From positions 1 through 23,108 of IMG/VR virus record IMGVR_UViG_3300045120_000129: a stretch of 23,108 nt of DNA; one strand, written 5' to 3'. The translations under genes and the position numbers were made by a program. Source of the DNA: a virus. A model generated the notes under the pieces. That model had not been told where the DNA came from and made no database searches. It saw nothing but the letters and a program-made list of their open reading frames with translations. This document shows positions 6,970 to 21,000 of this stretch, piece by piece; positions within the stretch are counted from its first letter, which is position 1, and each line of letters opens with the position of its first letter.

Positions 6970-6973
6970 AATG

Positions 6974-6982
6974 ATATTTATG
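6974..6982 (-). promoter_or_regulatory. T4-like late promoter motif abutting gene 17 start
   Basis: The minus strand reads CATAAATAT six bases before the terminase ATG; the other motifs here sit 29-41 bases from their starts. A start site a few bases downstream would fall at the ATG itself. It stands back to back, two bases apart, with the -35 box (6985-6990) of the plus-strand promoter. Confidence 0.5.
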
Positions 6983-6984
6983 CC

Positions 6985-7012
6985 TTGACAACCTCCCCAA
7001 AAATGCTATTCT
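6985..7012 (+). promoter_or_regulatory. Sigma70-like promoter P1 of the plus-strand cassette
   Basis: A perfect -35 TTGACA (6985-6990), a 16-base spacer and a -10 TATTCT (7007-7012). The stretch TTGACAACCTCCCCAAAA recurs 90 bases downstream with one change, at promoter P2. It would be read by host RNA polymerase, so early or middle expression is likely, in contrast to the late motifs on the other strand. Confidence 0.65.
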
Positions 7013-7036
7013 TTTGATTCTGAAAAGGAGGAAGGC

Positions 7037-7078
7037 ATGTATGATTATGCCGTCGAAAAAGGTAAAAAAGAAGATTGA
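7037..7078 (+). CDS. 13-codon mini-ORF with strong ribosome site
   Basis: ATG to TGA encoding MYDYAVEKGKKED. A strong Shine-Dalgarno run, AAGGAGG, lies in the bases just before the ATG. Its TGA lies inside the TTGACA of the second promoter. It could be a leader peptide, a tiny functional peptide, or the remnant of a gene whose body was deleted, leaving promoter, ribosome site and start. The perfect start signals are seen; translation and function are not established. Confidence 0.4.
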   Translation: MYDYAVEKGKKED

Positions 7079-7103
7079 CAACCGCCCCAAAATCGAATAA
7101 TGT
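7075..7103 (+). promoter_or_regulatory. Sigma70-like promoter P2 of the plus-strand cassette
   Basis: TTGACA at 7075-7080, followed after 17 bases by TAATGT (7098-7103); an alternative -10 is AATAAT at 7096-7101. It matches P1 at 17 of the first 18 bases (ACCG for ACCT). It lies 31 bases before the first cassette gene's ATG at 7134, with AAGGAGG in between. Confidence 0.6.
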
Positions 7104-7133
7104 CATTTTACGATGAAAGAAGGAGGAAATATC

Positions 7134-7457
7134 ATGAACAAGGTGAATTTTGGCACGCTGGTGGCATTTGTGTCGGGTCTTTTGCATCACGGTTACGATC
7201 AATTGACGCACGCCCACATCGAAACCCTGGATGCCATTACTGATGAGCCGCCCGTTGTTGTGGCGGGGCCTCCATCCGAATTTCTTTCCGCCGAACAACG
7301 GAATCTTGTTTGGGATTTGATTCGATGTGTAGCTGAAAACCGAAAGATTGAGGCCATCAAAATTCACCGGGCTCTGACGGGTTTCGCGCTTAAGGAATCT
7401 AAGGATGCCCTTGAAACCTTGAACGAACAGTTCAATATTAAGAAGAGGGAAACATGA
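7134..7457 (+). CDS. Small protein with ribosomal L7/L12 C-terminal-like segment
   Basis: 107 residues starting MNKVNFGTLVAFVSG. The ATG at 7134 is preferred to the in-frame ATG at 7113, because AAGGAGG lies eight bases before 7134 and would be inside the longer ORF. The C-terminal part, with IEAIKIHRALTGFALKESKD at about residues 76-95, matches the L7/L12 C-terminal pattern (xVIKxVRxxTGLGLKEAKDLVE). That domain contacts translation factors on the ribosome stalk, and lone copies of it occur in small bacterial and phage proteins of unknown role. The first 60 residues are not recognised. It is first in a four-gene operon on the strand opposite to the structural genes; its last four bases (ATGA) overlap the next start. 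Interference with host translation is a guess from the fold resemblance. Confidence 0.85.
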   Translation: MNKVNFGTLVAFVSGLLHHGYDQLTHAHIETLDAITDEPPVVVAGPPSEFLSAEQRNLVWDLIRCVAENRKIEAIKIHRALTGFALKESKDALETLNEQFNIKKRET

Positions 7458-7684
7458 AGAAGAAAAACTTTCAACTGAATGATTACGTTCGGATTGTTGG
7501 AGTTCCGAACGATAATTTCAACGAATTGAATGGGATGGTGTGTCTTGTCTTGGGAAAGGCCTATATACAAGTAATTGACACCTATATCATTCAGCTTCCC
7601 CAATGGATAAAGACCAATGATCCGGATTTTCCGGAGACCCGAACAATCTGTCTGACGGAAGGTTGTCTTGAATTGGAAACCTAA
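7454..7684 (+). CDS. Small protein, possible SH3/KOW-like beta barrel
   Basis: 76 residues, MKKKNFQLNDYVRIVGVPND at the start. The pattern of a basic start, then DYVRIVG, LNGMVCLVLGK and TYIIQLP, with alternating hydrophobic residues and a Gly turn, looks like the small barrels (SH3, KOW, Hfq-size) that bind nucleic acid or protein; this is by eye only. It starts within the ATGA overlap with the previous gene, and an AGAGGG site precedes it, so translation is probably coupled. Function unknown. Confidence 0.75.
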   Translation: MKKKNFQLNDYVRIVGVPNDNFNELNGMVCLVLGKAYIQVIDTYIIQLPQWIKTNDPDFPETRTICLTEGCLELET

Positions 7685-7694
7685 GGAGGAAACC

Positions 7695-8018
7695 ATGACA
7701 TATGGAAAACTGATTGGTCTGATCTCAAAATATGGCCTGGGACGCAATCCCGCAAGCGGGGAGACTCAATGCCTGCGATGGGAGACTGACAAACATACTC
7801 CCTGGTGGAACAAAGACGCCCATCAAAAAGGCAAGGCGTCTATTGAACTGACTGTTTGTCCGGAACGGGAAGATGAGCCCTGGGTGGAATTTGACGTGCG
7901 GGAGGGCACTACCGGGCCGTCTGGACGCATCATGTCGAAGGTGATCCATATCACTATGTCTTTGGAGGATGCCAAGGCCTTTGCCAATCATATCCTGACA
8001 GGAACATTCAAAGCATGA
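7695..8018 (+). CDS. Hypothetical small early-type protein
   Basis: 107 residues starting MTYGKLIGLISKYGLGRNPA. I place the start at the ATG at 7695: AAGGAGG (7684-7690) lies five bases before it. The TTG at 7668 would add nine residues, overlap the previous gene and have no ribosome site. It is Trp-rich (for example RWETDKHTPWWNKDAH) with a mixed beta pattern in the middle and a probable helix near the end (SLEDAKAFANHILTG). No family recognised. It is third in the plus-strand cassette and overlaps the next start by four bases. Confidence 0.8.
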   Translation: MTYGKLIGLISKYGLGRNPASGETQCLRWETDKHTPWWNKDAHQKGKASIELTVCPEREDEPWVEFDVREGTTGPSGRIMSKVIHITMSLEDAKAFANHILTGTFKA

Positions 8019-8353
8019 AATCTCTAGTGAAAATTGACAACCGGGCGGCTTGGGTTATCGCTGTAAAGAAGCGAATTAAATTCATTGAGGACTATCGAAA
8101 AAATCATGATGATGCCTATGAAAAGATATGGGCTGAGAAATATCATCGGCGTCCCTGGATTCGATGGCTGATTGGTCCTAGTACAGAAAAACCCTATGAG
8201 GACCTGGGGGATTATCCTTGTATCCGCTGGGGGGGCATTCTGAATGACGCCAAACATCTATTGAAAGTGTTAGAGAATGAACACTATACCGATGATATCT
8301 TTGTTGATATCGAAACAGTAAATATATTTACTTCTTCTGAGCATTCAGAATAG
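8015..8353 (+). CDS. Hypothetical small early-type protein
   Basis: 112 residues starting MKSLVKIDNRAAWVIAVKKR. The N-terminal 40 residues look helical and charged; the middle holds Trp/Arg-rich RRPWIRWLIGPS. The second half has another likely helix (GILNDAKHLLKVLENEH) and an acidic, hydrophobic end (DDIFVDIETVNIF). No family recognised. It is the last gene of the cassette, starts in an ATGA overlap, and its last 26 bases overlap the 3' end of the convergent small terminase gene. No hairpin with a T-run was seen at this junction. Confidence 0.75.
   Translation: MKSLVKIDNRAAWVIAVKKRIKFIEDYRKNHDDAYEKIWAEKYHRRPWIRWLIGPSTEKPYEDLGDYPCIRWGGILNDAKHLLKVLENEHYTDDIFVDIETVNIFTSSEHSE
8317..8332. repeat. 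16-base perfect palindrome at a convergent gene end
   Basis: AGTAAATATATTTACT reads the same on both strands and straddles the point where the plus-strand cassette meets the gene 16 stop (8328). It holds TAAATA on each strand. It is too AT-rich for a standard terminator. It may be a protein-binding site or chance. Confidence 0.4.
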
Positions 8354-8726
8354 ATAATAGCTCCCCGGTAGTACCAACGAAAAGGTTGTTGGTGATCCCA
8401 TCGTTCTTTTCCGGGACCTTGTTCATCTTGGCAATATCGGCTTTTTGCTTCTGAAGATGCATGAGGTCCCGGCTGGACTCAATGCTGAATTTAATCATAT
8501 TACCCAGGACTTCATAAAAACGGGGATGTTGGGATTGAGAAGCCAAATCCTTAGTCTCTGATATCACTTCCTCCAGGTCCCCCATCCGTTCCAAGATGTT
8601 GGAGCGGGCCTTGTCGAAATCAGAGGAAACATCCGGAGAGACCACAATCTCTTTATCTTCCTTTAGGGGCTCCAGAATTTCTCCATTCAGACCGATACCC
8701 AGGCTTTTTGCAATTGAATTATCCAT
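8328..8726 (-). CDS. 16: Terminase small subunit, gp16-like
   Basis: 132 residues (T4 gp16 has 164). The core, FDKARSNILERMGDLEEVIS then SQHPRFYEVLGNMIK and SRDLMHLQKQKADI, is the paired-helix coiled segment typical of the small terminases of cyanophage and other T4-like phages. The end NNLFVGTTGELLSIL is also typical of them. The protein forms an oligomeric ring that recognises viral DNA and regulates the gp17 ATPase. AGGAG sits just before the ATG at 8726, which directly follows the stop of the upstream gene. The next minus-strand gene is gp17, but four opposite-strand genes lie between. Confidence 0.9.
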   Translation of the reverse strand: MDNSIAKSLGIGLNGEILEPLKEDKEIVVSPDVSSDFDKARSNILERMGDLEEVISETKDLASQSQHPRFYEVLGNMIKFSIESSRDLMHLQKQKADIAKMNKVPEKNDGITNNLFVGTTGELLSILNAQKK

Positions 8727-9287
8727 CTATTCTCCTATCGGTTTATGAGCCACCAGGGTGCTGTTGCGTCTTTGCCACTGGGAGTGATCTCCGGGGGCGG
8801 CGTGGGTATACCCCTTCCCAATTCTTGGGGTAGATGATGCTGTTTGGCTTCCGCTATCCCACTTATGGACATTCACCCCCGGTATCTTATGCAGCCGCCG
8901 CCACGTTTTCAAACCCCCTTCCGACTGAGAATTGTCGGAATGAATAATCATATTATGGTGATTGATTAGGTGGTGATATAGCTCATGGGCTTTGATAGAG
9001 GAGTTCTTGCTTCCCGAAAGATTTGTGACTTTAAGCGTTTCGGAACCGTTAGAATGCTTTTGAGTTGAGCCGACAACATGCATCTCAATTTTCTTACTGA
9101 CCGGATGGACAGCCGCAAAGCCCGTAAATCCTCCATGGGGACTAGTTTCCCGATAGATATGATGACCGGAGGGGGCGTTTGAAATGAGCTTGCTTCCCTT
9201 TGATTTAAACTTCTGATCGGGAAGCTTAGCCGTCATCGGAACATCCCCCAGGGCAATTTCATTTAGGATTTCTTTGAAACGTCCCAT
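8727..9287 (-). CDS. Unknown protein with T4-type capsid-targeting leader; possible internal head protein
   Basis: 186 residues. The start MGRFKEILNE ends in LxE and resembles the N-terminal capsid-targeting peptides removed by T4 prohead protease gp21, so mature protein might begin at residue 11 (IALGD). A similar leader starts the gene at 2232-2801. The body alternates beta-like segments with KAHELYHHLINHHNMIIHSD and SQSEGGLKTWRRLHKIPGV. The order 'helix, SDxxQSxGGxxxWxxL' recalls a recurring phage protein type that may have a GNAT-like fold; I cannot confirm it. The C-terminal third is Ser/Gly/His-rich and likely disordered. It sits between tail completion gene 15 and small terminase gene 16, two bases after the gene 15 stop and flush with the gene 16 start. 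Injection with DNA is inference. Confidence 0.8.
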   Translation of the reverse strand: MGRFKEILNEIALGDVPMTAKLPDQKFKSKGSKLISNAPSGHHIYRETSPHGGFTGFAAVHPVSKKIEMHVVGSTQKHSNGSETLKVTNLSGSKNSSIKAHELYHHLINHHNMIIHSDNSQSEGGLKTWRRLHKIPGVNVHKWDSGSQTASSTPRIGKGYTHAAPGDHSQWQRRNSTLVAHKPIGE

Positions 9288-9289
9288 CT

Positions 9290-10138
9290 TTAAGTCCCCG
9301 TAAAGGTATCAAAATCAACGACATAACCCCAATTATCATCAACGGCGATCTCTAGATAGCTAATAGTTTCGGAAATATTAGAGGTTGGTTCACCATTTGC
9401 GGTAAGACCCGGCTGGAGTGTTGATGCAATTGCAATGGGGTTGGCGTTGGTCAAGGATGGGTTAGTAGCCTCATTCTGAAGACGCTGATTGATGGTAACG
9501 AACTTGATGATTGGCTTTTTCTTGACCGGTCCAAAAAACCAAGCTTTCATGCGGAACTGAATGGTCCAAATTAGGGTGCGACGTTCCTTATAGTCCTTAT
9601 CATAGACATCCTCACAAGAAACGCTTTCGATGGTAATAGGAATATCTCTGATTTCATCCATTTCTGGGACCAGTTCGACCGTCATGGTATAGTCCGGCGT
9701 AAAGAATGGGATAATCTGTTCCATAATTTTGTTGGCATCTTCAATGTTTTTAGCATAAACGTACAAATTGAACATGATGTCATAGGGAACGGCGGCATAC
9801 AAAACATTCAGCTTGTTCTTGTCTCCGTCAATCTTAGTAACCTTCTTCTGAATGCTCCCAAACTTCCTGTCTGGATCATAGACATAACCTCCCGGAGCTA
9901 TCTCAAAGGATATCTGGGGAAGGACGGCCGCCGCCGGTCGATTAAGGTCCGGATCAGCCGTCAGTCGAACCAGCATCTTTTCTTTGGGACCAAATGATAG
10001 AGGTACTTTAATAGTTTGAGAAACGGTGACCCCATCATCCTCAAAACGTTTGATTACAATGGTGTTGAACATGTTACCAAAAAGGGCGACATACTTGGTG
10101 ATTAGACCGTGATAGAAGTTTTCGGCATTCCAGATCAT
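9290..10138 (-). CDS. 15: Tail completion / sheath stabiliser protein, gp15-like
   Basis: 282 residues (T4 gp15 has 272). It opens MIWNAENFYHGLITKYVALF with GNMFNTIVIKR, and shares with T4 gp15 the segments LYVYAKNIEDANKIMEQIIP followed by FFTPDYTMTVE, and RRTLIWTIQFRMKAWFFGPV. The family forms a hexameric ring capping the tail tube and sheath and joining tail to neck. The Asn/Ser/Thr-rich C-terminal 60 residues are less conserved. Its ATG overlaps the gene 14 stop by four bases (ATGA), and it precedes the head-protein candidate at 9287. The order 13-14-15 matches T4. Confidence 0.93.
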   Translation of the reverse strand: MIWNAENFYHGLITKYVALFGNMFNTIVIKRFEDDGVTVSQTIKVPLSFGPKEKMLVRLTADPDLNRPAAAVLPQISFEIAPGGYVYDPDRKFGSIQKKVTKIDGDKNKLNVLYAAVPYDIMFNLYVYAKNIEDANKIMEQIIPFFTPDYTMTVELVPEMDEIRDIPITIESVSCEDVYDKDYKERRTLIWTIQFRMKAWFFGPVKKKPIIKFVTINQRLQNEATNPSLTNANPIAIASTLQPGLTANGEPTSNISETISYLEIAVDDNWGYVVDFDTFTGT

Positions 10139-10872
10139 ACGACGTTCCCGCTATCACCTTGGGAGAATGGGTCCGTCTCTGACCAATTCAGGATTTCATC
10201 GGCTTTGTCTCTGGTATCTTTATTATCAGATAGCGGGGAGACATCTTCGAAGTCAAAGGCATCGATGACTATAAAGTCTCCGTCTTCTGTTAATAGCAGA
10301 GAGCCGTCTGTATCCAGAAGGGAATAATCCTGGACGTTGATGGAGCTTCGAAGTTGAATTTCATCAATCTCTGGAATTCCGGTATCAAAAACTTCATTGG
10401 AATATTCAAACAGTTCGCACGTCAATTTCCAGGACTGAAGGGTACCCAGGGCATAGAACATGTTATATTGATCGACAAACTTGATTTGAAAAACCTTTTG
10501 GTTCATGGGAAAATAGATGATATCACCTTCCCGGGGTCGGGCTATGACAGCCGGAAAACCTACTTCACTCTCAAAGCTACGTCGGGGAATGGAGACGGTG
10601 ATTTGATCCCGAATTTCCGCTCCCATGAACTTAGTCATGAGGTCACGGTCCCCCCCGAAACCCATGATGTTCTCAATATAACACTCAACCATATAGGAAT
10701 TTTCATAGAGGCTTTGATCGTCGGTAAGGTATGTTCTATCCAGATTGACTAGGGTACGGGTAATGTAATACATATCCATTCCATAGATTTTGGTTGCTTC
10801 CACAATCAGGTCTTCAAGAAACTCTTGTTCAGTGGAAGCACCATAATTGTTGAAGAATTGATTGGTAGGCAT
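10135..10872 (-). CDS. 14: Neck protein, gp14-like
   Basis: 245 residues (T4 gp14 has 256). Shared features with T4 gp14: an early EQEFLEDLIVEATKIYGMDM followed by YYITR, EIRDQVTVSI-like EIRDQITVSIPRRSF, the strand-turn segment REGDIIYFPMNQKVFQIKFV and YNMFYALGTLQSWKLTCELF. gp13 and gp14 form the neck that closes the filled head and accepts the tail. The acidic C-terminal tail (about 200-245) is probably disordered. The start has no clear ribosome site; the preceding gene ends nine bases upstream, so coupled translation is likely. The bases between include GTAAATATT, a poor match to the late motif. Confidence 0.92.
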   Translation of the reverse strand: MPTNQFFNNYGASTEQEFLEDLIVEATKIYGMDMYYITRTLVNLDRTYLTDDQSLYENSYMVECYIENIMGFGGDRDLMTKFMGAEIRDQITVSIPRRSFESEVGFPAVIARPREGDIIYFPMNQKVFQIKFVDQYNMFYALGTLQSWKLTCELFEYSNEVFDTGIPEIDEIQLRSSINVQDYSLLDTDGSLLLTEDGDFIVIDAFDFEDVSPLSDNKDTRDKADEILNWSETDPFSQGDSGNVV

Positions 10873-10880
10873 AGGAATAT

Positions 10881-11642
10881 TTACCCAATCATATCAGTTA
10901 CGGGTAAACTGTAACTTTTTATCATATCGTGTTCCAGTTGAGTAATTTCAGCAACGGCATCATCATAAATCTTTTGAGCATTGAACTGAAGGCCCCCTAA
11001 CATCTGGGCCCCGACATACTTAGTTAGATGAGAGCCCCATTGTCGTTTAATCAAAGCCGTAGCATATTGTTGTAGCCAGCGATCCCCCCAGGCATCATTG
11101 AAAACGTCGGGATCAATCACGTTATATGCCTCAATAATCAGATATTGCCCAACCTGAAATTTCTGGGACCAGTTTGTATCGACGTACAAACGGTTGGAGT
11201 GGCGATTATAACGGATAGGTTGTTTACCCGATAGAACATCCTGAATGAAACCTAATTTGGTCATGGTCATGACGTAGGGTAGGAGATCAACGGAAGAAAA
11301 ATTATACAATTCAGACATGAAAATCTGATAGGGAACGTTATTCAAAATGTCTCCAGAGCTTTGATTAATGCCCCCCTCAAAGATACGGATAGCCCCAATG
11401 ACGTTATCAGGCATGGTAATGTATTTGTTATCGATATCATCTTGTGTGATCTGATATTTGTAATAAAGTTTTTCGGACCCATCCATGTGGAAATCAAACC
11501 AGTATTTCAGGGCATCATCAATGCGATCATCAATCTGTTCGGCGCTGACGTTAATCTCAATAACTGGGGCCCCCAACCGCCGCAGACAGTAGGCTTTGAA
11601 TTGTGCTCTGGTGGTCGGACTACCCGAAAGGGGGAAGGTCAT
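10881..11642 (-). CDS. 13: Neck protein, gp13-like
   Basis: 253 residues (T4 gp13 has 309). Typical family segments are TRAQFKAYCLRRLGAPVIEI, EQIDDRIDDALKYWFDFHMD, GSEKLYYKYQITQDDID, GAIRIFEGG and WGDRWLQQYATALIKRQWGS, the last containing the YATALIKRQWG that is conserved across T4-like neck proteins. It assembles with gp14 on the portal after packaging. AAGGA lies six bases before the ATG. The gene opens a transcription unit: an intrinsic terminator and a late promoter motif lie directly upstream. Confidence 0.94.
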   Translation of the reverse strand: MTFPLSGSPTTRAQFKAYCLRRLGAPVIEINVSAEQIDDRIDDALKYWFDFHMDGSEKLYYKYQITQDDIDNKYITMPDNVIGAIRIFEGGINQSSGDILNNVPYQIFMSELYNFSSVDLLPYVMTMTKLGFIQDVLSGKQPIRYNRHSNRLYVDTNWSQKFQVGQYLIIEAYNVIDPDVFNDAWGDRWLQQYATALIKRQWGSHLTKYVGAQMLGGLQFNAQKIYDDAVAEITQLEHDMIKSYSLPVTDMIG

Positions 11643-11654
11643 GGGTTTTCCTTA

Positions 11655-11690
11655 ATAAAAAAGGCGGACATGACTATTTATCATGCCGCC
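11655..11690 (-). terminator. Intrinsic terminator with a late promoter motif in its loop
   Basis: On the minus strand a ten-base-pair GC-rich stem (GGCGGCATGA pairing TCATG-t-CCGCC, one bulged base) has a seven-base loop, TAAATAG, and is followed directly by TTTTTT. It ends transcription of the 44-codon gene upstream. The loop bases are part of the GATAAATA motif serving gene 13. Confidence 0.8.
11674..11682 (-). promoter_or_regulatory. T4-like late promoter motif before gene 13
   Basis: GATAAATAG on the minus strand, 33 bases before the gene 13 ATG, set in the terminator loop. A transcript beginning a few bases downstream would contain only the second arm of the stem, so it would not be stopped by the hairpin. 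Confidence 0.65.
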
Positions 11691-11736
11691 AAGGTTAATA
11701 GCGTTCTTTTCTTCTTATTGTATAGAGACTTAACCC

Positions 11737-11871
11737 TTACGTGTTGGCGGTTGGGTGGGGGTGAACCTTAGATTCAACGCTATCGGCCGTAGACTTGAAC
11801 AAATCAGGCTTCATCCAAGCAAAAGCTCCTGCCGCTACTGCCCCTAATGCCAATCCTAATAGAAATTCCAT
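11737..11871 (-). CDS. 44-residue single-span membrane peptide
   Basis: Starts MEFLLGLALGAVAAGAFAWM, one hydrophobic span at about residues 3-20 with glycines spaced as in helix-packing membrane segments, then a polar tail KPDLFKSTADSVESKVHPHP. The ATG at 11871 is chosen because GGAGGA lies eight bases upstream; the longer in-frame ORF from 11934 overlaps the previous gene and has no ribosome site. The N-terminus is probably outside and the Lys-bearing tail in the cytoplasm (inference). It has its own late promoter motif (11905-11914) and a terminator after it, so it is a separate short transcript. It could be a holin-like, envelope-modifying or structural peptide; nothing in the sequence decides. 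Confidence 0.75.
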   Translation of the reverse strand: MEFLLGLALGAVAAGAFAWMKPDLFKSTADSVESKVHPHPTANT

Positions 11872-11904
11872 AGTATAATCCTCCGAAATGAGTGTTGTAA
11901 CAAT

Positions 11905-11914
11905 TCTATTTATG
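11905..11914 (-). promoter_or_regulatory. T4-like late promoter motif before the membrane peptide gene
   Basis: The minus strand reads CATAAATAGA, overlapping the TAG stop of the PP-loop gene and 36 bases before the ATG at 11871. Confidence 0.65.
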
Positions 11915-12913
11915 AAGATAGAGAGTTGTCCCATCCTCCCTCAGAGCTAACCAATCGGGAGCGGTATAGGAGTGTTGGGATACCATTTTTGTCTTGTTAT
12001 TGACATAATGTTGATCCCTGATCGTCCCCCGGATAATCTCCCGGAGCGGCCACTTATAGCTGTTTTTGTGGCCTTTTAGGATGGATGGCTCAATATCCCG
12101 GGCCGACACCGCCCAACGCTGAAAGTCCTCTGACCCATAGAAATTGATAATTCTGGGCTGAATGGCCGGATCAATCATCACATCATGATGATATTTGACG
12201 GACTGCCAGGAGAAATTGAAGGAATAAAACCATCCAAAATCAAATAAAGTCTTGATTTTAGTAGGAAATTTCTCTAGGGGCGGTTGACAAAACTCCAAAA
12301 GATTTCTGTCAATATGGTCTTCGAAGGGTTCAAAAAGTTGATTTTCGGTAAAAGTCTCTAGGAGGTCGGAACGGCCAAAGAGTTGATCCCCCAGACCGCC
12401 CGTCACAAATAGCTCATCGGAAGGGAACTGCTTGTAGAGGTCCCCCCGGTACTGGGTGGTCGTCAAATGATATCTGAAGTTATTTTTAACAAATCTATCA
12501 AAAATGGAACCCGATTCCAAAACAGAGTTGTAAGTCAGGATCACCCGCAGCCGTTTTAGCTCTTCGGGTTTAGCAAGGGCTAGAAAGGTCCCTAGCATCG
12601 CTGTAGAGTCCAGGCCGCCACTCCACATCAGGTTGATGGGTTTTTTCTTATCCAGAAGGCTTAAAACGCGAAGGATCATACATTCCCAAAACAAGGGAGG
12701 GGGGGACTTTTGAAGGGGAGGAAGAGGCTCAAACCTCATGTTCAGAAAATGAGGAATAGACCCGGTACGGTCCACTACAGAATGATTGATTTCTTCCAGA
12801 GGAATTTTCTTATATTTTTCAATAAGATGTCCCAGAAAAAACTTAGACCAGTAGGGTTGCAACTGGTCTAAGTTCGGGTAGGTATGAAAGGGGTTATATT
12901 TAAGAAGCTTCAT
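11906..12913 (-). CDS. Asparagine-synthetase-like PP-loop ATPase without glutaminase domain
   Basis: 335 residues. The ATP pyrophosphatase P-loop SGGLDST is at 98-104 within NLMWSGGLDSTAMLGTFLAL, and the second signature TGGLGDQLFGRSDL is at 171-184, where AsnB-type enzymes have SGxGxDExFGGY. The C-terminus holds YKWPLREIIRG and NNKTKMV, also synthetase-like. There is no N-terminal Cys-2 glutaminase, so the 97 residues before the P-loop are something else. Such enzymes adenylate a carboxylate and join it to an amine; the lasso peptide cyclase is one example. Here the Glu/Asp of the second motif is replaced by Gln (GDQLFG), so substrate handling may differ. It overlaps the radical SAM gene by 14 bases (AGGA before its ATG lies inside that gene), so the two are probably made together. 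Substrate unknown; a neighbouring peptide is my preferred guess. Confidence 0.85.
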   Translation of the reverse strand: MKLLKYNPFHTYPNLDQLQPYWSKFFLGHLIEKYKKIPLEEINHSVVDRTGSIPHFLNMRFEPLPPLQKSPPPLFWECMILRVLSLLDKKKPINLMWSGGLDSTAMLGTFLALAKPEELKRLRVILTYNSVLESGSIFDRFVKNNFRYHLTTTQYRGDLYKQFPSDELFVTGGLGDQLFGRSDLLETFTENQLFEPFEDHIDRNLLEFCQPPLEKFPTKIKTLFDFGWFYSFNFSWQSVKYHHDVMIDPAIQPRIINFYGSEDFQRWAVSARDIEPSILKGHKNSYKWPLREIIRGTIRDQHYVNNKTKMVSQHSYTAPDWLALREDGTTLYLHK

Positions 12914-14510
12914 AGTTCCTCATAAAAATGAATTTATCATCGCGTTTCTGAATAACGGCATCTTTCCACGAAATAGCAGTAGGTAATAGTTCCAGAACCC
13001 TTTCCTTGAATTCCGGGTCCTCCAAACCGTAAAGCTGATCTTCCGGAATAACTACAGATTTTTCAGTTGTGGTATAATTCTTATCTGTCTCTGAATTATA
13101 CCAAAAACGGTTATTCACATAGAACCAATTGGGTACATCCTCAACATAGATTAGTTCCCAAACCCAGCCGTTAATGGTTGGTCCATCTTGTTTTTTCTTT
13201 TCAGCCACGATTGGGGTTCTTTTCTCCAGCATGGCCGGGTCCGGTCGGGCAATCCTCCCGTTCACTTCCTTGAGAACCCAACCATCCGTAATGATGAAAA
13301 GAGCCCCCGCAAGAATTCCCATATTATAAGCATATTCAGAGGAACAAGAATGGAACCAATTAAAATCATTGGGAAGATACATGCAAGAGCCGCCACAAAG
13401 CTGTAGAACTGGACAATTTGAACACTCATCCCTGTTACTCCAATGCCAAGAAGTGTCTAGTTTAACTTGGTCCATCAACATAACATGACCAATACGATGG
13501 TTCTTGTCAGAAGTAGTATTCTGACAAGTCATGACGTTGCCCAAAAGATCACAGGCCAGATTGTCTTCTTTGTCCATCCCACACTTCTGCCCCAGGGCAT
13601 AGGAAGGCTTCCGATACTTCAAAGACATGGCGAAGTTGATAATTCGATTGACGACTGTCGATGGTAGAGCATCGACTTTATCATCTACCTTAGCCTGGAA
13701 GATCATTGTCGCCATATTGTGGGTCAGTTGATCGTACTGAGCGGGAGTGAAGCCGGTCACAAACTCCGGAGCGTCAGCATAGGAGGTAACTACCCCTTCG
13801 AATTCCACCCGGACATCTCCGTCTAGCTGTTCCCTAAAGAATTTGAAAATGGCTGTAAGGTCGATGTTATTAGGTGTCAGAACCACATTAAAGGACATCT
13901 TTGGTCCTCTGATGGCATAAAGTCTCTTGATCATAGCAAGCTGTTCAAGATTTTGGAAAGGATCATCACCCCGCAAAGCTTGACCCGGGCCATCATGAGA
14001 GATAGCCATGTTAATATCAAACGTCTCAACAAACTCAATAAATTCATCATCAATTAGAGTTCCGTTGGTGATAATGACATATCGGGTTTTAGTAAAACGT
14101 TGGGATAGCTCTTGTAGCAGATATTTGATCTTCTTCCAGTATAACAACGGCTCCCCGCCCCAGAACTCAATAACCTCTGGTTCGCCTTCCAACCACTTGT
14201 CCAAATTCTTGATGAAAATCTTGGCATCGGCCAGATTGGTGTTGATTGCCGACTCCACATGAACACTCTGAGAGCAATAAGAGCATTTCATATTGCACTT
14301 CAACCCAAGCTGGATTTTCAGCTTCTTCGGGGCCCGAATTTTCTTGCCGGGATTGGAAGGAGACACCTTGTCAACCGGGTCCCAAGCCTTAGGCTCTGAC
14401 TGAACCACTTCGGACCCATCCTGAAAATGCAATTCAGAAGTATGGGGGTTGTATTTCAGAACGTGTTTCTGCCCGTTTCGGTCTTCCATCACCAAGTTGT
14501 AAATGCTCAT
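12900..14510 (-). CDS. Radical SAM/SPASM peptide-maturase-like enzyme
   Basis: 536 residues. The N-terminal 60 residues are unrecognised and Lys/Asp-rich. The radical SAM core begins IQLGLKCNMKCSYCSQ, with the CxxxCxxC cluster ligands C72, C76 and C79. WGGEPLL (117-123) is the SAM-binding GGE motif, followed by YVIITNGTLI. A SPASM domain for auxiliary iron-sulphur clusters is complete by eye: C310, C320 (CDLLGNVMTC to C329), then C363-x2-C366-x5-C372-x3-C376 and C389. SPASM enzymes mostly modify peptides or small proteins (sactipeptide, PqqE, QhpD and anaerobic sulfatase maturases). Residues 430-536 form an extra C-terminal part (INGWVWELIYVEDVPNWFYV) of unknown role. It follows the 158-codon gene by four bases without a clear ribosome site. 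No leader-binding PqqD-like domain was seen. It shares a late operon with fibre-like genes and the Cys-tailed peptide, hence a virion protein is the likely substrate (inference). Confidence 0.93.
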   Translation of the reverse strand: MSIYNLVMEDRNGQKHVLKYNPHTSELHFQDGSEVVQSEPKAWDPVDKVSPSNPGKKIRAPKKLKIQLGLKCNMKCSYCSQSVHVESAINTNLADAKIFIKNLDKWLEGEPEVIEFWGGEPLLYWKKIKYLLQELSQRFTKTRYVIITNGTLIDDEFIEFVETFDINMAISHDGPGQALRGDDPFQNLEQLAMIKRLYAIRGPKMSFNVVLTPNNIDLTAIFKFFREQLDGDVRVEFEGVVTSYADAPEFVTGFTPAQYDQLTHNMATMIFQAKVDDKVDALPSTVVNRIINFAMSLKYRKPSYALGQKCGMDKEDNLACDLLGNVMTCQNTTSDKNHRIGHVMLMDQVKLDTSWHWSNRDECSNCPVLQLCGGSCMYLPNDFNWFHSCSSEYAYNMGILAGALFIITDGWVLKEVNGRIARPDPAMLEKRTPIVAEKKKQDGPTINGWVWELIYVEDVPNWFYVNNRFWYNSETDKNYTTTEKSVVIPEDQLYGLEDPEFKERVLELLPTAISWKDAVIQKRDDKFIFMRNYEAS

Positions 14511-14514
14511 GAAT

Positions 14515-14991
14515 TTATATCTTTATTGGGGGCACTGGACCAAATTCTTGTGCTCCGGTGATCGAAAGAAGACAACCCGGCGCGCCGATTAGACCCATAA
14601 TCGCCCCATGTTCAAAACTTAAAGAGGTCGGACGAATTGCCAACCGACCAACAACAGGCTTACCAAAATCAAATGGTTTGGTCGGATCAGGCCCGAACAT
14701 TCCCGAATGATATTCAAGGGGAGGGGGATTTGAAGTATTGGTAATCCCTACGGACGGAAGCGGAAACAACCAACTATCGTCATGACATGCTTCGGGGCGA
14801 CTCAGAAGATCATCGAAATGGCATTCATAATCCATGAAGTATTCGTCTTCTTGAAGAGGGGGGTTACGATCATTGGCTAGATAGATTTCCTTGATTTTAA
14901 CTGAAAGTCTCAGACTATTTTCATCAAAAACCAACTTAATTTCTTTCGGGGCCAGAAGATTTAGAGCATCGGAGATCAAACGAATATACAT
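14515..14991 (-). CDS. Unknown 158-residue protein between the Cys-rich peptide and the maturase
   Basis: Starts MYIRLISDALNLLAPKEIKL with alternating strands (VFDENSLRLSVKIKEIYL). The middle is acidic and aromatic (DEYFMDYECHFDDLLSR), and the end is Gly/Pro-rich (FDFGKPVVGRLAIRP, GAIMGLIGAPGCLLSITGAQ). No family recognised. It holds three Cys (at about 76, 89 and 140), one each in the segments YECHF, EACHD and PGCLL. Its ribosome site GGAGGG is formed by the last two Gly codons of the Cys-tailed gene, and its ATG directly follows that gene's stop. The tight link to both neighbours suggests a partner: a structural protein that carries the modified peptide, a substrate, or a recognition factor for the enzymes. 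The choice is open. Confidence 0.8.
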   Translation of the reverse strand: MYIRLISDALNLLAPKEIKLVFDENSLRLSVKIKEIYLANDRNPPLQEDEYFMDYECHFDDLLSRPEACHDDSWLFPLPSVGITNTSNPPPLEYHSGMFGPDPTKPFDFGKPVVGRLAIRPTSLSFEHGAIMGLIGAPGCLLSITGAQEFGPVPPIKI

Positions 14992-15246
14992 TTACCCTCC
15001 ACAATTACAAGCACAAGCACAAGCCGAAGTACAATTAGTGTCAAAATTGACGGAAAGGGTTGAATTAGCAGAACTGTAGCTCACTGTATTTACTCTGGTA
15101 CCAGATGATCCTTGAACATTGGTATTATCCCCCGAAGCGGTAATCACCAGATTCTTGATGAATTGGGTGGGGGTGTCGATAAACTTAGCCCAATCTACAC
15201 TGGGGGTGTTGGTGATCACTCTGGTCGTATTGATGAAAATTGCCAT
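14992..15246 (-). CDS. 84-residue Cys-tailed small protein, candidate maturation substrate
   Basis: Residues 1-70 resemble the 59-residue protein at 15435-15614: both have MxIxIN-T at the start, NT-x-(I/V)DW near residue 18, and N-x-TL-x-(V/I)-x-F near the end. To this is added a 14-residue tail, NCTSACACACNCGG, holding every Cys of the protein: C72, C76, C78, C80 and C82. Alternate Cys with Ala or Asn between and a C-terminal Gly-Gly suits cross-linking or metal binding and is unusual for a phage protein. The order peptide, unknown gene, radical SAM/SPASM enzyme, PP-loop enzyme is that of a RiPP locus, with a folded structural-type domain in place of a leader. Start overlaps the previous stop (TAATG). 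No ribosome site of its own is seen, so coupling is likely. Modification is a hypothesis. Confidence 0.8.
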   Translation of the reverse strand: MAIFINTTRVITNTPSVDWAKFIDTPTQFIKNLVITASGDNTNVQGSSGTRVNTVSYSSANSTLSVNFDTNCTSACACACNCGG

Positions 15247-15431
15247 TACGAATTCAAACTTTTCTTTAGGACCAAGGTCTTAGAGGTTGATAGGAAGGTC
15301 GCCGTATAATAGAGATTAGACCCAAAAATGTCCACAATTTCTACTATGGTAGACGGCTTCCCCGAAACATTATTATATGATAAAATCCCGGAGTTGTCAA
15401 TAAGAGTATTGGCGTTTTCTTTGATGGACAT
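15246..15431 (-). CDS. 61-residue small protein, possible distant relative of its neighbours
   Basis: Starts MSIKENANTLIDNSGILSYN and ends in a two-strand-like segment YYTATFLSTSKTLVLKKSLN. No Cys. Length, MxI(K) start, Asn/Ser/Thr richness and the late 'KTLVLKK' strand resemble the adjacent 59- and 84-codon genes, but it lacks their DW motif, so relationship is weaker. It starts three bases after the previous stop and its stop overlaps the next ATG, with no independent ribosome site. Probably a small virion or fibre-associated beta domain (inference from context). Confidence 0.7.
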   Translation of the reverse strand: MSIKENANTLIDNSGILSYNNVSGKPSTIVEIVDIFGSNLYYTATFLSTSKTLVLKKSLNS

Positions 15432-15434
15432 GGA

Positions 15435-15614
15435 TCAGGGTCCGAATGTAATTGTGAGGGTGTTGCCGCTTTTTGCTATATTGATAATTGGCTTGGTATT
15501 TGCTCCCGCCAGTAGATTGGCGTTGGTTGTGATGGTCGCCGGAACATTGGTGATCAGGCTCCAATCAATCGTATTTGCATTGTTAAAAACCGTGCTGTTG
15601 ATCTTGATGATCAT
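15435..15614 (-). CDS. 59-residue small protein, paralogue of the Cys-tailed protein without the tail
   Basis: The protein starts MIIKINSTVFNNANTIDW and ends SGNTLTITFGP. It is easily missed at a 60-codon cut-off. The ATG lies three bases after the fibre gene's stop, and its own stop lies three bases before the next start, filling what would be a 186-base gap. Against the 84-residue protein, the start (M-I-IN-T, then NT-DW) and the final strand (N-TL-F) correspond, but the Cys tail is absent. This makes it a natural unmodified comparison. Function unknown; being in a late fibre operon suggests a virion component. Confidence 0.75.
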   Translation of the reverse strand: MIIKINSTVFNNANTIDWSLITNVPATITTNANLLAGANTKPIINIAKSGNTLTITFGP

Positions 15615-15617
15615 CCG

Positions 15618-18029
15618 TTATCCCGTGTAGAGCCTTGTACCCTTGAAAGTGATATTATTCGAAGCCATGATAAAGTTCAGAATGGCGTGAGTGGCGTTGG
15701 CCGTTACTGTAAAGCTTCCAAGATTGGCGGCCGAATTTGATATCATGCCGATTTCAATAAACCCGGTTTGAGCCCCGTCGCCCTGAACAACAAGAACATC
15801 AGAAATCTGATTGTTGGAAGTGTTGTTGTCCTTCAAGGTTAGCGTATATTTAGCACTTAAGTAGGATGCTATCGGGAAGGAATCAATGATCTGAGTATTC
15901 GGTAGGGTCGTGACCGCCAAGGTCTGATTCATCGTCATCAACGTACAGGGGCCCATGATCAAAGCCGTTGAATTAATGACGCTATTGGCTGTAGAGTTTC
16001 CAATCAACAAAGCCGATGTGTTAAGAGATAGGTTGGCCCCCACAGAAATAGCAGTTGTATTAACCTGAGAGGAACCAACTAGCAGCTTGCCTGGGTCCAT
16101 ATTGGCCGAAGCAGTGGAATTTGCCACAGAAAAGAATACGCTATTCAAGGAGGCATTAGCTGTAGTATTTCCAATAGCCAGATGGATTGTATCCAGAAGA
16201 ACATTTGCCCCATGTGCCGTGGCCGAAGCATTCACCACAGAACCCCCAATTGCCAACTTCAAAGGATCAAGGTTGGCAATAGAAGTGGCGTTGGCTAGGG
16301 AGATAAGAACTGAGTTGGTTGACAGGTTGGCGGTTGAGTTTCCAAATGAAGCTTTAACTGTGTTGATAAAGACATTGGACCCAATTGAAAGTTGGGTGGA
16401 ATTTGAAATCACATTAACAGTGGAATTACCAACCGTCAGGCCGGTAGTGACAACTACAAGACCTGATTGAAGGGCGGTTGAATTGACAATACTTACCCCG
16501 ACCAACAATTGGAGGGGTTGGATGTTCATTGTGGATGTAGAGTTTGCCAGGGATATAAGAATGCTATTGGCCGTCAGGTTGGCAGTTGTATTACCCACAA
16601 AGAATTTGACGGTGTTTAGGGTGACGTTGGCCCCCACCGTCAGGGTATTTGAGAGGAATACGGTGTTGGTTGTTTTATCAAAGGTATGACCCGCACTAGC
16701 ACCATAGACGCCAGAATCATTAAAAGGAATTTGAGTATTTGCTCCTGCCGCCGCTATCGAAAGGACCGCCCCGTTCACATAGATACCCAAGGAATTCACT
16801 ACACAGTTTTGTGTGGTATTCCCCAAGGAAAGGCGGATTGTGTCCAGGACAATATTGGCTCCAAGACCCAGGGCGGTAGAATTTAACACAGAAGTACCAA
16901 TAGACACTTTCAGAGGGTCGATATTGGCGATAGAAGTAGAGTTTGCCAGGGAGATAAGAATGCTATTGGCTATTAGGTTGGCAGTCGTATTTCCAATAGA
17001 TAGCTTGGTTGTATCCAGGAAGACGTTGGAACCGGCAACCAGGGCCGTTGCATTGACCTGGGCAACGCCGATAACCAGCTTTAAAGGATCAAGGTTGGCA
17101 ATTCCGGAAGCATTTTGAAGAGAAAGAAGAACACTGTTGGTTGATAGATTGACGGTGGAATTACCGAAAAAAGCCCGGACGGTTGTGAAAGAAACATTAG
17201 CTCCGATAGAAATTTGGGTAGAGTTCGAAACCACATTGACGGTGGAATTACCGGAAGTCCAACCCGTTGAGAAAATTCCCAAAGGAGAAGAGATAGCCGC
17301 TGTATTGACTATAGAAGACCCAACTGAGATAATACCCGGCTGAATGTTGGAAATACCAGTGGAGTTTGCGGAACTAATCAATATTGAGTTGGCGATTAAA
17401 TTAGCGGTGGAGTTACCAACGGCCAGCTTGTTGACATCCAGAGTGACGTTGGCTCCTGCCATAAAGCTGGTGGAGTTAACAAGAACATTGGCTCCTACGG
17501 CGATTGCCGTGGTATTGGCGATGATATTAGCCCCTACCGCAACTACTGTAGAATTGACCGTTGAAACACCAATAACAAGCTGGGTGGGTTGAAGATTGGC
17601 ATTTCCTGTAGAATTTGCTACTTTAATGCCGGTATTTGAAATTTGAATATTGGCAGTGGAATTACCGAAAGAGGATAAGAGAGCCCCTCCCATGAAATTA
17701 TTGGCATCAATGGAAATGGTGTCGGAGCCAGAATCATAGGAAAGACCAATAGAAACGACATTGGTAGTATCGGCCGTGACCCCGTTCCAGTTACCGGACG
17801 TATAGGCTTCTAGGGCCCCGGTGTCCGTATTATACCGGAACATACCGTTAGCGCCTGTTACGGGGCGTTCCGCCGTATTACCCCGGGGGATAAGGATGGC
17901 ATCGTTAGACGCAATGTGTAGGGAGGTGTTTGGGGTGCTGGTATTGATACCAACTTTGCCATTATTTGCAAAAAGCAAAGAAGTATTTACAATTATGCCA
18001 TTTTTAACCCGAAAAGGTCCGTCGCTCAT
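15618..18029 (-). CDS. Repeat-built tail-fibre-like structural protein
   Basis: About 803 residues from the ATG at 18029, which has GGGGA 11 bases upstream; a GTG at 18038 would add three residues but sits too close to that site. The N-terminus (GPFRVKNGIIVNTSLL, GKVGINTSTPNTSLHIAS, GMFRYNTDTGALEAYTSGNW) is a common start of phage fibre and collar proteins. Residues of about 120 to 690 hold 11 copies of GN(S/T)TxN, in units near 57 residues that also carry NSxLISLANSTS-ANIDPLKL and a GANV-LDT stretch. Between copies 6 and 7 a different segment, NTQIPFNDSGVYGASAG, recalls a domain common in phage fibres. Repeats 2-5 and 7-10 run in the same order, a higher-order duplication. In T4 the genes before 13 are the short fibre and fibritin, so a fibre or whisker role fits. 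Confidence 0.8.
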   Translation of the reverse strand: MSDGPFRVKNGIIVNTSLLFANNGKVGINTSTPNTSLHIASNDAILIPRGNTAERPVTGANGMFRYNTDTGALEAYTSGNWNGVTADTTNVVSIGLSYDSGSDTISIDANNFMGGALLSSFGNSTANIQISNTGIKVANSTGNANLQPTQLVIGVSTVNSTVVAVGANIIANTTAIAVGANVLVNSTSFMAGANVTLDVNKLAVGNSTANLIANSILISSANSTGISNIQPGIISVGSSIVNTAAISSPLGIFSTGWTSGNSTVNVVSNSTQISIGANVSFTTVRAFFGNSTVNLSTNSVLLSLQNASGIANLDPLKLVIGVAQVNATALVAGSNVFLDTTKLSIGNTTANLIANSILISLANSTSIANIDPLKVSIGTSVLNSTALGLGANIVLDTIRLSLGNTTQNCVVNSLGIYVNGAVLSIAAAGANTQIPFNDSGVYGASAGHTFDKTTNTVFLSNTLTVGANVTLNTVKFFVGNTTANLTANSILISLANSTSTMNIQPLQLLVGVSIVNSTALQSGLVVVTTGLTVGNSTVNVISNSTQLSIGSNVFINTVKASFGNSTANLSTNSVLISLANATSIANLDPLKLAIGGSVVNASATAHGANVLLDTIHLAIGNTTANASLNSVFFSVANSTASANMDPGKLLVGSSQVNTTAISVGANLSLNTSALLIGNSTANSVINSTALIMGPCTLMTMNQTLAVTTLPNTQIIDSFPIASYLSAKYTLTLKDNNTSNNQISDVLVVQGDGAQTGFIEIGMISNSAANLGSFTVTANATHAILNFIMASNNITFKGTRLYTG

Positions 18030-18057
18030 TGGTTCCACTATCCCCGTTTATTTCTTG

Positions 18058-18065
18058 TATTTATC
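18058..18065 (-). promoter_or_regulatory. T4-like late promoter motif before the fibre and maturase operon
   Basis: GATAAATA on the minus strand, overlapping the TAA stop of the 1427-codon gene and 29 bases before the fibre ATG at 18029. No further full match at a promoter-like position is seen until 11905-11914, so it probably serves fibre, three small genes, 158-codon gene, radical SAM and PP-loop genes together. A one-mismatch TATAAATT ends three bases before the radical SAM ATG and is probably chance. Confidence 0.7.
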
Positions 18066-21000
18066 TAAATTTACCTTTGATTGTCGTCTCCGGTCTCATG
18101 TGGGTCTTAATGGCCCTCAAGGTCTGTGGTTTGACTTTGATCTTAGAAGGTAAGGCATTTCGGAGTTCAACTGAAAGGTCCACTGTCTGAGGATGAATAT
18201 GATAGATCGTTGAACCCAAAGTTATTCGGTAATTGTTTTTTGTAAGATTAATATCATTCCGCCCCAGGGTATAAGACCCCGACCCCACAGCCATCGGGTA
18301 TGCATGAGGGAATGTTACGGTTTTCCCGCTTAAATTAAAGGTCCCAGAGATAGCGGTTATATTGAAATTCTTAAGAAGACCCGCTGATTTCCCCGAAAGA
18401 ATATAGGACCCGGTATTTGCATAGAGTTTTCTTGTCGAAGTCAAGGATGCATTCTGACCGGAAAGATTGAATGATCCCGTTCCAGAGCTTCGGAAGTTAC
18501 CGAAAGCCACGATGGCGTTCTTACCAGAAAGAGTATAGGACCCGGTAGAAGCGGTTAACACAAATGTTGTCTTAAGACTGACCGTCTTTCCACTTAGAGA
18601 ATAAAGGGTTGTGTTTGCTGAAGTGTTTAGGCCCCGTAGTAATCTAATGTCATTTCCTTGTACAGGGAAGAACCGGGTTCCTGCTATATCAACAAAGTTA
18701 TGACGAAGAGAAATAGCATTACCTGTAGTTGAATATGAAGTGGTATTTGAGTTTAATATTCGGTCTGCTTTGAGAGTTATATTATAACCAACTATATTAT
18801 AGGTACCAACATCAATACTGATGGAAAGTTCTGAATTTATTGACAATATTGTTTGCTTACCACTTAAGATATATGTCCCATTATTTGCAGAGAAGATATA
18901 ATTTCTGGTAAATGAGACTGTCTTGCCGGAAAGGGTATAAGAATTTGTTGAAGAGATTAATGTATGACCGAAGACCAGATTGGCTGTCTTACCGGCGATA
19001 GCATAGGAATTTGTGTTCGCGGTTAGTTTCGATACCTTGATGAAAGATGCGTTGGAACCGGTGATCAGGTATGAACGGGTATTGGAATTAAGCTGGTTAC
19101 CCTTATTGAAAGTAACCGTTTTACCAGAGATTGCATAAGAATTGGTGTTGACAATAAAGGTTTTTCCGGAACCTAATATAGCAGATTTTCCAAGAGAGGT
19201 GTAAACTCCTTGTGTCGCTGGTGTATTTGAAGTCTTGGTCAATGAAGCGGTGCTTCCGATAGAGAGATAGGAACCGTTTGAGGCGACCGTATTTGAAGTT
19301 TTCTTCAGAATCGCCACCTGTCCGGAGATCAGGTATGTTCCGGAATTTGCGACATTTGTATGATTATATATAAAGGAAACGGCCTTACCAGAGATTCCAT
19401 AAGATGACGTAACAGCAGGCATACCGATTCCAAAGGAAACTGTTTTTCCAGAAAGGGAATAAATACCTCTTGACGAACCTGTTGTCAAGAGACCAACACT
19501 CTGTCCGGTAATACCATAAGAAGCAGTGTTGGCCGGTCCAATAATATCGTTAAAGGAATTGGAATAGGCTCCGGAATATGAACCGGGATCGGCCACAAGG
19601 TTTAAGTTCGTAGCTCTATCGTTTAGTTTGGCGGCAGAAATTGGCTGAGAACCAATAGGAGTAGAACCGATACCAAACCAACGATGATTTACCGGAGGTA
19701 TCAGGAATGCAACCTGACCGGTAGAAATATATGATCCAAACTGAGCGGTAAGTATAATCGGAGCCGCCAAAGCTGCGGTACGACCGGTGACTGAGTATGT
19801 TCCGGATGAAACATCCAAATTATATAGATTTCTTATTGCCCCCCGGGCAGAGGATTGGAGATTTGGTCTATGCCAAGTCGTCCAGGGTCGGCGGAAGGTC
19901 CATTTTTTATTTGACATTCCTCTTTGAGGTCTGACATTCGGGGCGGAGATTATAATTGTGGCCTGGGTTGCCCCAAAACTTACAGAGCCCCCACTTATAG
20001 CATATGCAGAGGTATTGGCATTAACTTGGAACCCTTCCCGAAGACCGGCCACCTTTCCGGCGATGGCATAAGAATTTGTATTCGCAACAACATTGTATCC
20101 CTTTGAGGTCGCCGCGTTTTTACCGAAAAGAGTATAAACCCCCATTCCATCGACCAATTTACTGGTCTTTGTAAATGTTACAGTTTTTCCAGAAAGACTA
20201 TAAGTTCCCTTATCAAACAGGGATGATGAACTATTAGTTGGATATCCGGTAATACCATAAGAAGCAGTATTGGCCGGGCCAACAATGTCATTGAAGGAGT
20301 TGGAATAGGCTCCGGAATATGAACCGGGGGACGCTAGAATAGTTATAGAACCACTTGAATGGTCGGAAAGTTTCGCTCCGGAGATTGTTCCGGAAGAAAT
20401 TGGACCAGATGAAATTCCTTCCCAGAGCGTAGGAGCAACTGTGGTTCTTGTTAGGGTAGCAGCGTTTCCTGTAGTTGAATATGTGGTTCCCCCCAGGGAT
20501 AGTGTAAAGTTTCTTAGGTCTGTTGCCCTTGCCCCTGAGATGGCAAAAGACCCAATGGCTCCCACTGAGATACCCGCTTGTATGGTGGCTGTTCGAATAA
20601 AGGTAACATTTTTACCGGATATTGAATATACTGTTGCGCCGCCCGGAGAGGACAGAAGTCTGACTAGGAGAGTAAATCCGGGACTAACTCTTTCGGATGA
20701 AGGTGTTGTTGCGATTAGGGTCGCGGCAATTGTATTTTTACCGAATGTGGTATAGGAACCAAAGGCTGGTCCTATACCCTTACCATACGTAAAGGTAACG
20801 GTCTTTCCACTAAGAGAGAATAAACCCGCAGAATCAGAGAGTGAAATAAGGGTATTCAGGCCGCCGCCAATCGCGGTGTCTGATATAGCAAAAGAGCTAA
20901 TCCCTACTTCTTTTTGACGCAGCGCAAAATTTCGATCAAGACTGACGATCTTTCCGGAAATTGAATAGGAGGAGGTAGATGGCAAAAAGAGATAGGTTTG

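Follow-up and report, generated by a model that had tools for sequence, protein, structure and literature searches.

A putative phage-encoded module for maturation of a cysteine-tailed fibre protein by a radical SAM enzyme

Why would a T4-like phage carry a radical S-adenosylmethionine (SAM) enzyme between its fibre genes and its neck genes? This question is raised by the IMG/VR record IMGVR_UViG_3300045120_000129, a viral contig of 23.1 kb (the whole stretch of 23,108 nt that was analysed is called the window here) with a T4-type late block on the minus strand. Four genes within this block encode an 84-residue protein with a cysteine-rich end, a 158-residue protein, a radical SAM enzyme and a PP-loop enzyme. 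A preliminary description had read them as a cassette resembling the maturation systems of ribosomally synthesized and post-translationally modified peptides (RiPPs), by which the phage modifies its own virion protein. All four open reading frames (ORFs) were found where this description places them, and they lie on the minus strand. We consider it likely that the radical SAM enzyme and the cysteine tail make up a module by which the phage matures a fibre-tip protein, and about as likely that the enzyme modifies the cysteine tail of a virion fibre protein.

The 84-residue protein has five cysteines among its last 14 residues and ends in NCTSACACACNCGG, in agreement with the preliminary description. 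Since cysteine accounts for 0.58% of the residues in the other 14 proteins of the window, the chance of such a tail is about 1e-8 per protein. Two Cys-less paralogues of 59 and 61 residues align with the N-terminal part of the 84-residue protein and stop where the cysteine tail starts. The tail is therefore an addition to a small fibre module. The same N-terminal part is homologous to Cys-tailed proteins of three other loci (L164, 4.5e-6; L156, 7e-6; L147, 1.2e-5). In one tail family all nine cysteine columns use both TGT and TGC, and some of the intervening residues vary. This pattern suggests selection on cysteine itself, and from these alignments the tail cysteines look to be under purifying selection. 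Across all tails the residue between two cysteines was Asn 263 times, Ala 64, Asp 53, Cys 13 and Val 10 times. At one locus (L199) a 246-residue protein 6.5 kb upstream of the enzyme bears a long CKCKCKCK array in place of the NCNC tail.

The radical SAM enzyme carries the CxxxCxxC motif (C72, C76, C79) together with a full set of SPASM cysteines (C310, Gx4C329, C363x2C366x5C372x3C376 and C389), as had been noted before. Among 67 diverse relatives C72, C76, C310, C329, C363, C366, C372, C376 and C389 were invariant, and C79 was conserved at a level of at least 90%. The protein matched the Pfam family Radical_SAM (2.3e-10) and phrog_1802 (8.7e-56). The best NCBIfam model was PapB with 94 bits, at the head of a long list of peptide-maturase models. 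An AlphaFold2 model (mean predicted local distance difference test score, pLDDT, 83.7; residues 1-420 well predicted) was closest to CteB (5why, 1.9e-12), followed by ChlB, anSME and TigE, and sequence-profile matches to known structures were TigE, anSME and CteB. CteB is a thioether-forming enzyme. Judged by its best matches (PapB, CteB, ChlB, anSME, TigE), the enzyme belongs with those SPASM proteins that modify peptides. In some phages there are two radical SAM genes of this or a related family, side by side or close to each other (e.g. L020, 1672-2694 and 2675-4015).

We tested whether tail and enzyme occur together in other genomes. A search of IMG/VR with the radical SAM enzyme alone gave 22 loci, and a search with a ten-sequence alignment gave at least 579 relatives; the analysis used the best 80 of these. 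GTDB genomes contributed 78 loci, mostly from Proteobacteria such as Limnohabitans, Variovorax, Polynucleobacter and Rhodospirillales. After removal of near-copies 123 loci were left, 105 of them with at least 4 kb of upstream sequence. An upstream ORF on the same strand with at least three CxC within 24 residues was present in 88 of these 105 loci. A strict test for C-terminal arrays was positive in 80 loci and selected 91 of 1752 upstream sense ORFs versus 12 of 7747 antisense ORFs (odds ratio 35, p 3e-54). Reading of the missed loci added ten more, mostly with tails fused to a Hint domain, so that a protein with a CxCxC array was present upstream in 90 of 105 loci. The array was nearly always C-terminal on an upstream protein encoded on the same strand. 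Cys-arrayed neighbours thus recur beside relatives of the enzyme, and the regular lack of such neighbours, which would have spoken against the preliminary description, was not seen.

The reverse direction was covered by a reciprocal scan, in which a DNA pattern for NCNCNCxC was run through IMG/VR and the enzyme was not used as query. This set was limited to tails at the C-terminus or ahead of a Hint domain, with 3.5 kb of downstream sequence; its rates refer to a sample, namely the matches listed. ORFs were called mechanically, and IMG/VR contigs are often fragments. Within 3.5 kb downstream and on the same strand, 41 of 43 tailed ORFs had the radical SAM enzyme, and the two exceptions were ORFs of 33 and 71 residues whose reality is doubtful. 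For NCNCNC matches outside an ORF or at a non-C-terminal position the enzyme was found in 1 of 21 cases. NCNCNC-tailed ORFs hence regularly adjoin the enzyme, and the linkage spans T4-like phages, siphophages and prophages of several bacterial groups. These comparisons give the preliminary description strong support. Short phage ORFs with an internal NCNCNC that end in CEHEECEVCQ (L033, L040, L060, L101 and similar) had no linked radical SAM gene and are apparently another, unrelated family.

The proteins that carry the tail range from 60 to more than 700 residues and are fibre-like, collagen-like or small fibre-module proteins. Collagen-like repeats lead straight into NCNCACDC at locus L243, the tailed protein of L001 adjoins a fibre with an S74 chaperone, and for the tailed protein of Achromobacter phage JWF similarity to T4 gp36 was noted by its annotators. 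Two T4-like phages (L163 and L164) share much of the window arrangement, with the order fibre, two Cys-less small modules, tailed small module, partner, radical SAM enzyme and genes 13 onward; equivalents of the small modules are in syntenic position (L163, 1610-1783; L164, 7391-7567 and 7571-7741). Because the tails sit on fibre-like proteins, the assumption that the phage modifies its own virion protein gained support, and the modification and its chemistry are still what we infer.

Fusions in which a Hint domain begins at the end of the cysteine array, or no more than four residues away from it, were seen in 18 distinct proteins. The search required a Cys before the motif, and the count of 18 is descriptive. 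The product of gene PJWF_00028 of JWF, as an example, reads RQNCNCDCNCNCS/CFPAGT at this junction, and its cleavage is predicted ahead of CFPAGT. An [ST]xxH block follows 55-64 residues past the Hint nucleophile Cys in 13 of the 18 proteins, and Pfam assigned Hint families to the three fusion cases tested. After the predicted self-cleavage the array would form the C-terminus of the mature protein, in keeping with its place at the C-terminus in other proteins. The 84-residue protein of the window has no Hint domain.

The PP-loop enzyme of the window contains the SGGLDST motif, as the preliminary description stated, and SGG.DS is invariant in its relatives; GDQLFG reads GNQLFG in most of them. 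No Pfam or NCBIfam match was obtained for this protein. Its AlphaFold2 model (pLDDT 87.7) matched asparagine synthetase, carbapenam synthetase and AsnB in Foldseek, and matches in the PDB were TsnB9, beta-lactam synthetase and asparagine synthetase with Z 11-13, compared to Z of about 9-10 for other PP-loop enzymes. The N-terminal glutaminase domain (Ntn type, with Cys2) is absent: the protein begins with MKLLKYNP, and its 335 residues leave no room for it. The proposed likeness to lasso peptide cyclases holds for the asparagine-synthetase fold without glutaminase and does not go beyond the fold level; neither a lasso precursor (Gly1, Asp/Glu 8-9) nor a B-protein protease was found among the cassette genes. 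In RiPP pathways, asparagine-synthetase-like (AS-like) enzymes convert the C-termini of peptides into amides or nitriles (PMC13060819), and for this reason the PP-loop enzyme may act on the C-terminal carboxylate of the tail. That it activates this carboxylate is a tentative assignment, which we regard as somewhat less likely than not. Relatives of the PP-loop enzyme surfaced only through the radical SAM neighbourhood, with homologues in 16 of the 123 loci; the window protein alone found none in viral contigs and none among 50,697 phage records.

Other accessory genes vary between loci. A conserved partner of about 260 residues lies between the tailed gene and the enzyme in 54 of 90 full-context loci, a 2-oxoglutarate (2OG)-Fe(II) oxygenase was present in 37 of 90, and a DctP-type binding protein in 9 of 90. 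Asn in the tail did not correlate with presence of the 2OG oxygenase (p 0.86). The 158-residue protein was suspected by eye to be a homologue of the conserved partner, and profile comparison with hhalign gave no support for this. In about 10 T4-like loci a DctP solute-binding protein of the tripartite ATP-independent periplasmic (TRAP) transporter type (Pfam, 5.8e-43) is encoded between the radical SAM and PP-loop genes (e.g. L005, 9811-10755; L001, 9801-10748), with no obvious signal peptide.

From these parts the following course of maturation can be proposed. The fibre module would fold and leave its C-terminal tail exposed. In Hint-fused relatives self-cleavage would expose the tail as mature C-terminus. 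The radical SAM enzyme would bind the tail, generate a 5'-deoxyadenosyl radical and oxidise residues beside the cysteines. The most likely product would be a series of thioether bridges from Cys to neighbouring residues, with mostly Asn, Ala and Asp as acceptors, which would yield a rigid, redox-stable tip. Thioethers are favoured because maturases that form them gave the best matches in sequence as well as in structure, and because PapB, which forms Cys-Asp/Glu thioethers, tolerates Cys-Xn-Asp with n of 0-6 (PMC9413430). We nevertheless give thioethers as the actual chemistry only an even chance. Accessory enzymes that vary between phages, such as 2OG-Fe(II) oxygenases or here the PP-loop enzyme, could tailor the same tail; the PP-loop enzyme would most likely adenylate a carboxylate, probably that of the C-terminus, so that it can be amidated or ligated. 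Once modified, the tip would become part of the adhesion apparatus.

Several observations weigh against this proposal. The equivalog cut-offs of NCBIfam were all missed (PapB 94 versus 340 bits, CcpM 70 versus 500 bits), and models other than these two scored lower still. A PqqD-like RiPP recognition domain was not found by Pfam in the cassette. The tail of the window is rich in Ala (ACACAC), most tails are rich in Asn, and the acceptor residue is thereby uncertain. The 158-residue protein remains an orphan, as first described, for which family libraries gave no match and phmmer no homologue. The PP-loop enzyme was present in only 14 of 90 full-context loci and is therefore not essential to the system. 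The sequences show the parts, their conservation and their linkage, and any chemistry on the tail is a prediction. Finally, about 15 of the 105 loci have no recognisable tail. One of them (L152) is a second enzyme copy, and the other copy on the same contig (L149) has a tail. The tail-less bacterial clades form two clusters in the tree. A YcaO gene was found at L224 (7357-9690), and an ORF of equal size forms a cluster upstream in 5 loci; L242 has genes for a C39 peptidase/ABC protein and HlyD (5578-9885) and L252 has genes for an ABC protein and an RTX protein (7771-19640). These YcaO and export loci of bacterial relatives are possibly undescribed RiPP clusters, and their RiPP-like context supports a peptide-modifying role of the enzyme family.

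Among other explanations, the best surviving one is that the cysteine array is a metal- or iron-sulphur-binding fibre tip and that the radical SAM enzyme only assists its assembly or acts elsewhere on the fibre. Alternating CxC residues are plausible ligands, and small, polar residues stand between them (N 263, A 64, D 53). The tip of the T4 long tail fibre is reported to have HxH iron sites, and its C-terminus is likewise built of alternating residues of the metal-ligand type, but these are His, whereas the cassette tails have Cys and a dedicated modifying enzyme. Metal binding alone needs no SPASM enzyme, yet the enzyme accompanied 41 of the 43 tails listed, and its best matches are peptide modifiers. 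We regard a mere metal tip as unlikely.

Less likely again is that the enzyme is an anSME-type oxidase that converts Cys to formylglycine, in which case aldehydes of the tail could form covalent bonds with the host surface. By sequence as well as by fold anSME ranks with the closest structures, it shares the SPASM fold and a Cys-containing protein substrate with our system, and the homologue in JWF is annotated as such an enzyme. However, anSME acts on sulfatases, and no sulfatase family was among the window proteins scanned with Pfam (distant loci were not searched for one). The dense cysteine arrays are unlike the single-Cys motif of sulfatases, CxA/PxR, and PapB and other peptide maturases outscored the sulfatase maturase in NCBIfam.

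It is very improbable that the product is a small secreted RiPP, for example a bacteriocin-like or superinfection-exclusion peptide, instead of a virion part. A length of 84 residues would suit a precursor, the enzymes are of RiPP type, and the tail weakly matched the bacteriocin precursor family TIGR04065 (E 0.035). Against this, many phages bear the same tail on fibre proteins of 300-700 residues, the Cys-less paralogues adjoin the fibre gene, and the scans of the cassette proteins with Pfam, PHROG and NCBIfam brought up neither an exporter nor a protease family. The notion that the two enzyme genes serve auxiliary metabolism or counter-defence and hitch-hike in a fibre operon, with the Cys tail unrelated to them, for which one could cite other phage radical SAM genes (e.g. 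QueE-like in PHROG) and one weak QueC-like match of the PP-loop protein, is largely refuted by the reciprocal linkage across T4-like phages, siphophages and prophages and by the YcaO or peptide-export loci among the tail-less relatives.

A maturation module for the fibre tip resembles the ranthipeptide and sactipeptide maturases (PapB, CteB/SCIFF) in its SPASM enzyme with auxiliary-cluster cysteines and in the adjacent Cys-rich substrate. It differs in the substrate, which in those systems is a small secreted peptide and here the C-terminal tail of what is probably a fibre protein of the virion, and in the spacing, which is Cx3D in those systems and CxC in the cassette tails. Those maturases have a recognition domain that Pfam recognises; the model of the cassette enzyme shows instead an N-terminal beta domain of about 55 residues. 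Sacti- and ranthipeptide pathways remove a leader, while the Hint domain in some cassette relatives would cut off a follower. With AS-like natural product enzymes (beta-lactam and carbapenam synthetases, lasso cyclase and the C-terminal amidases PesC/TsrC/ScdTA) the PP-loop enzyme shares SGGLDS, the fold and a neighbourhood of peptide-modifying enzymes, at some cassette loci also 2OG oxygenases; it differs by its 335 residues without N-terminal glutaminase and by its presence in a minority of loci. By score the window enzyme belongs to phrog_1802 (radical SAM domain-containing), a family filed under 'other', where a Cys tail is not noted.

Close relatives among the 50,697 phage records were restricted to Achromobacter phages JWF and 2-1, whose genes are annotated as anaerobic sulfatase maturase or radical SAM protein. 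Plasmids contained no relative of the one enzyme of the family used as query. No description of an enzyme-modified cysteine tail on a fibre was found in the open-access literature (subscription journals were mostly outside this coverage), in line with the earlier statement that no described phage system of this kind is known. The kinds of enzyme are already known, and their use on a virion fibre tail appears to be new. On balance we lean towards a distinct viral maturation class, shared by several virion types and defined by a cross-linked cysteine fibre tip, a dedicated radical SAM enzyme, exchangeable tailoring enzymes and sometimes a Hint domain. If this is true, phages apply radical chemistry of the RiPP kind to a structural component of their virion, probably the tip that contacts the host, and the receptor-binding tip would be a chemically non-canonical structure beyond what the genetic code alone specifies. 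It would also explain the radical SAM gene in fibre operons of hundreds of environmental phages, would add a layer of host recognition that sequence-based prediction misses, and would give access to many enzymes that modify peptides, with their substrates, as a so far untouched resource. The proposal can be tested directly, since the module is of small size, the site is predicted to be the tail, and two of the carriers (JWF and 2-1) are in culture.

The features of the window that bear on the module are collected in Table 1.

Table 1. The proposed maturation genes and their neighbours in the window.
Feature	Position	Strand	Basis
806-aa fibre-like protein, NST-rich repeats, GTG start, heads the gene run	15618..18038	-	ORF list
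59-aa small fibre module, Cys-less paralogue of the 84-aa N-terminal part	15435..15614	-	alignment
61-aa small fibre module, Cys-less paralogue	15246..15431	-	alignment and syntenic equivalents
84-aa small fibre module, cysteine array NCTSACACACNCGG at its C-terminus, proposed substrate	14992..15246	-	
158-aa orphan, sits where other loci have the conserved partner of about 260 aa	14515..14991	-	
SPASM radical SAM maturase, 536 aa, proposed modifier of the Cys tail	12900..14510	-	phrog_1802 family
PP-loop enzyme, 335 aa, asparagine-synthetase fold without glutaminase domain, proposed carboxylate-activating accessory	11906..12913	-	
65-aa small protein, hydrophobic N-terminal stretch, overlaps the PP-loop gene	11737..11934	-	
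T4 gp13-like neck protein, marks the late structural operon	10881..11642	-	phrog_211 head-tail adaptor, 4.3e-39

The late block carries a 1427-residue repeat protein, followed by the fibre-like protein and the three small related proteins, and after the 84-residue protein by the orphan, the radical SAM enzyme, the PP-loop enzyme, the 65-residue protein and the T4-type genes 13, 14, 15, 16, 17, 18 and 19. The contiguous run and its place ahead of neck gene 13 were thereby borne out. The genes for the 84- and 158-residue proteins abut, a gap of 4 bases separates the latter from the radical SAM gene, the radical SAM gene shares 14 bases with the PP-loop gene, and the genes for the 61- and 84-residue proteins overlap by 1 base. 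Homologues of gp13 were close to the radical SAM gene in 9 further loci. A late promoter common with the fibre gene, as had been assumed, was unsupported: the exact T4 late box TATAAATA is absent from the window, and sites with one mismatch were at chance level (24 versus 27 +/- 5).

The fibre-like protein had only weak PHROG matches, to families with no assigned function, and falls into one cluster with the fibre genes that precede the cassette elsewhere. The 65-residue protein, with a weak holin-like PHROG match (0.03), probably lies outside the maturation module. Just upstream of the fibre-like gene, the 1427-residue protein (18061-22344) consists of repeats of about 30 residues (Y.ITG...ATL.R / SGKTV.F), and Pfam and PHROG gave no match for it. 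Between genes 16 and 17 four small ORFs on the plus strand (7113-8353) oppose the late block, and one of them resembles the C-terminal domain of ribosomal protein L7/L12.

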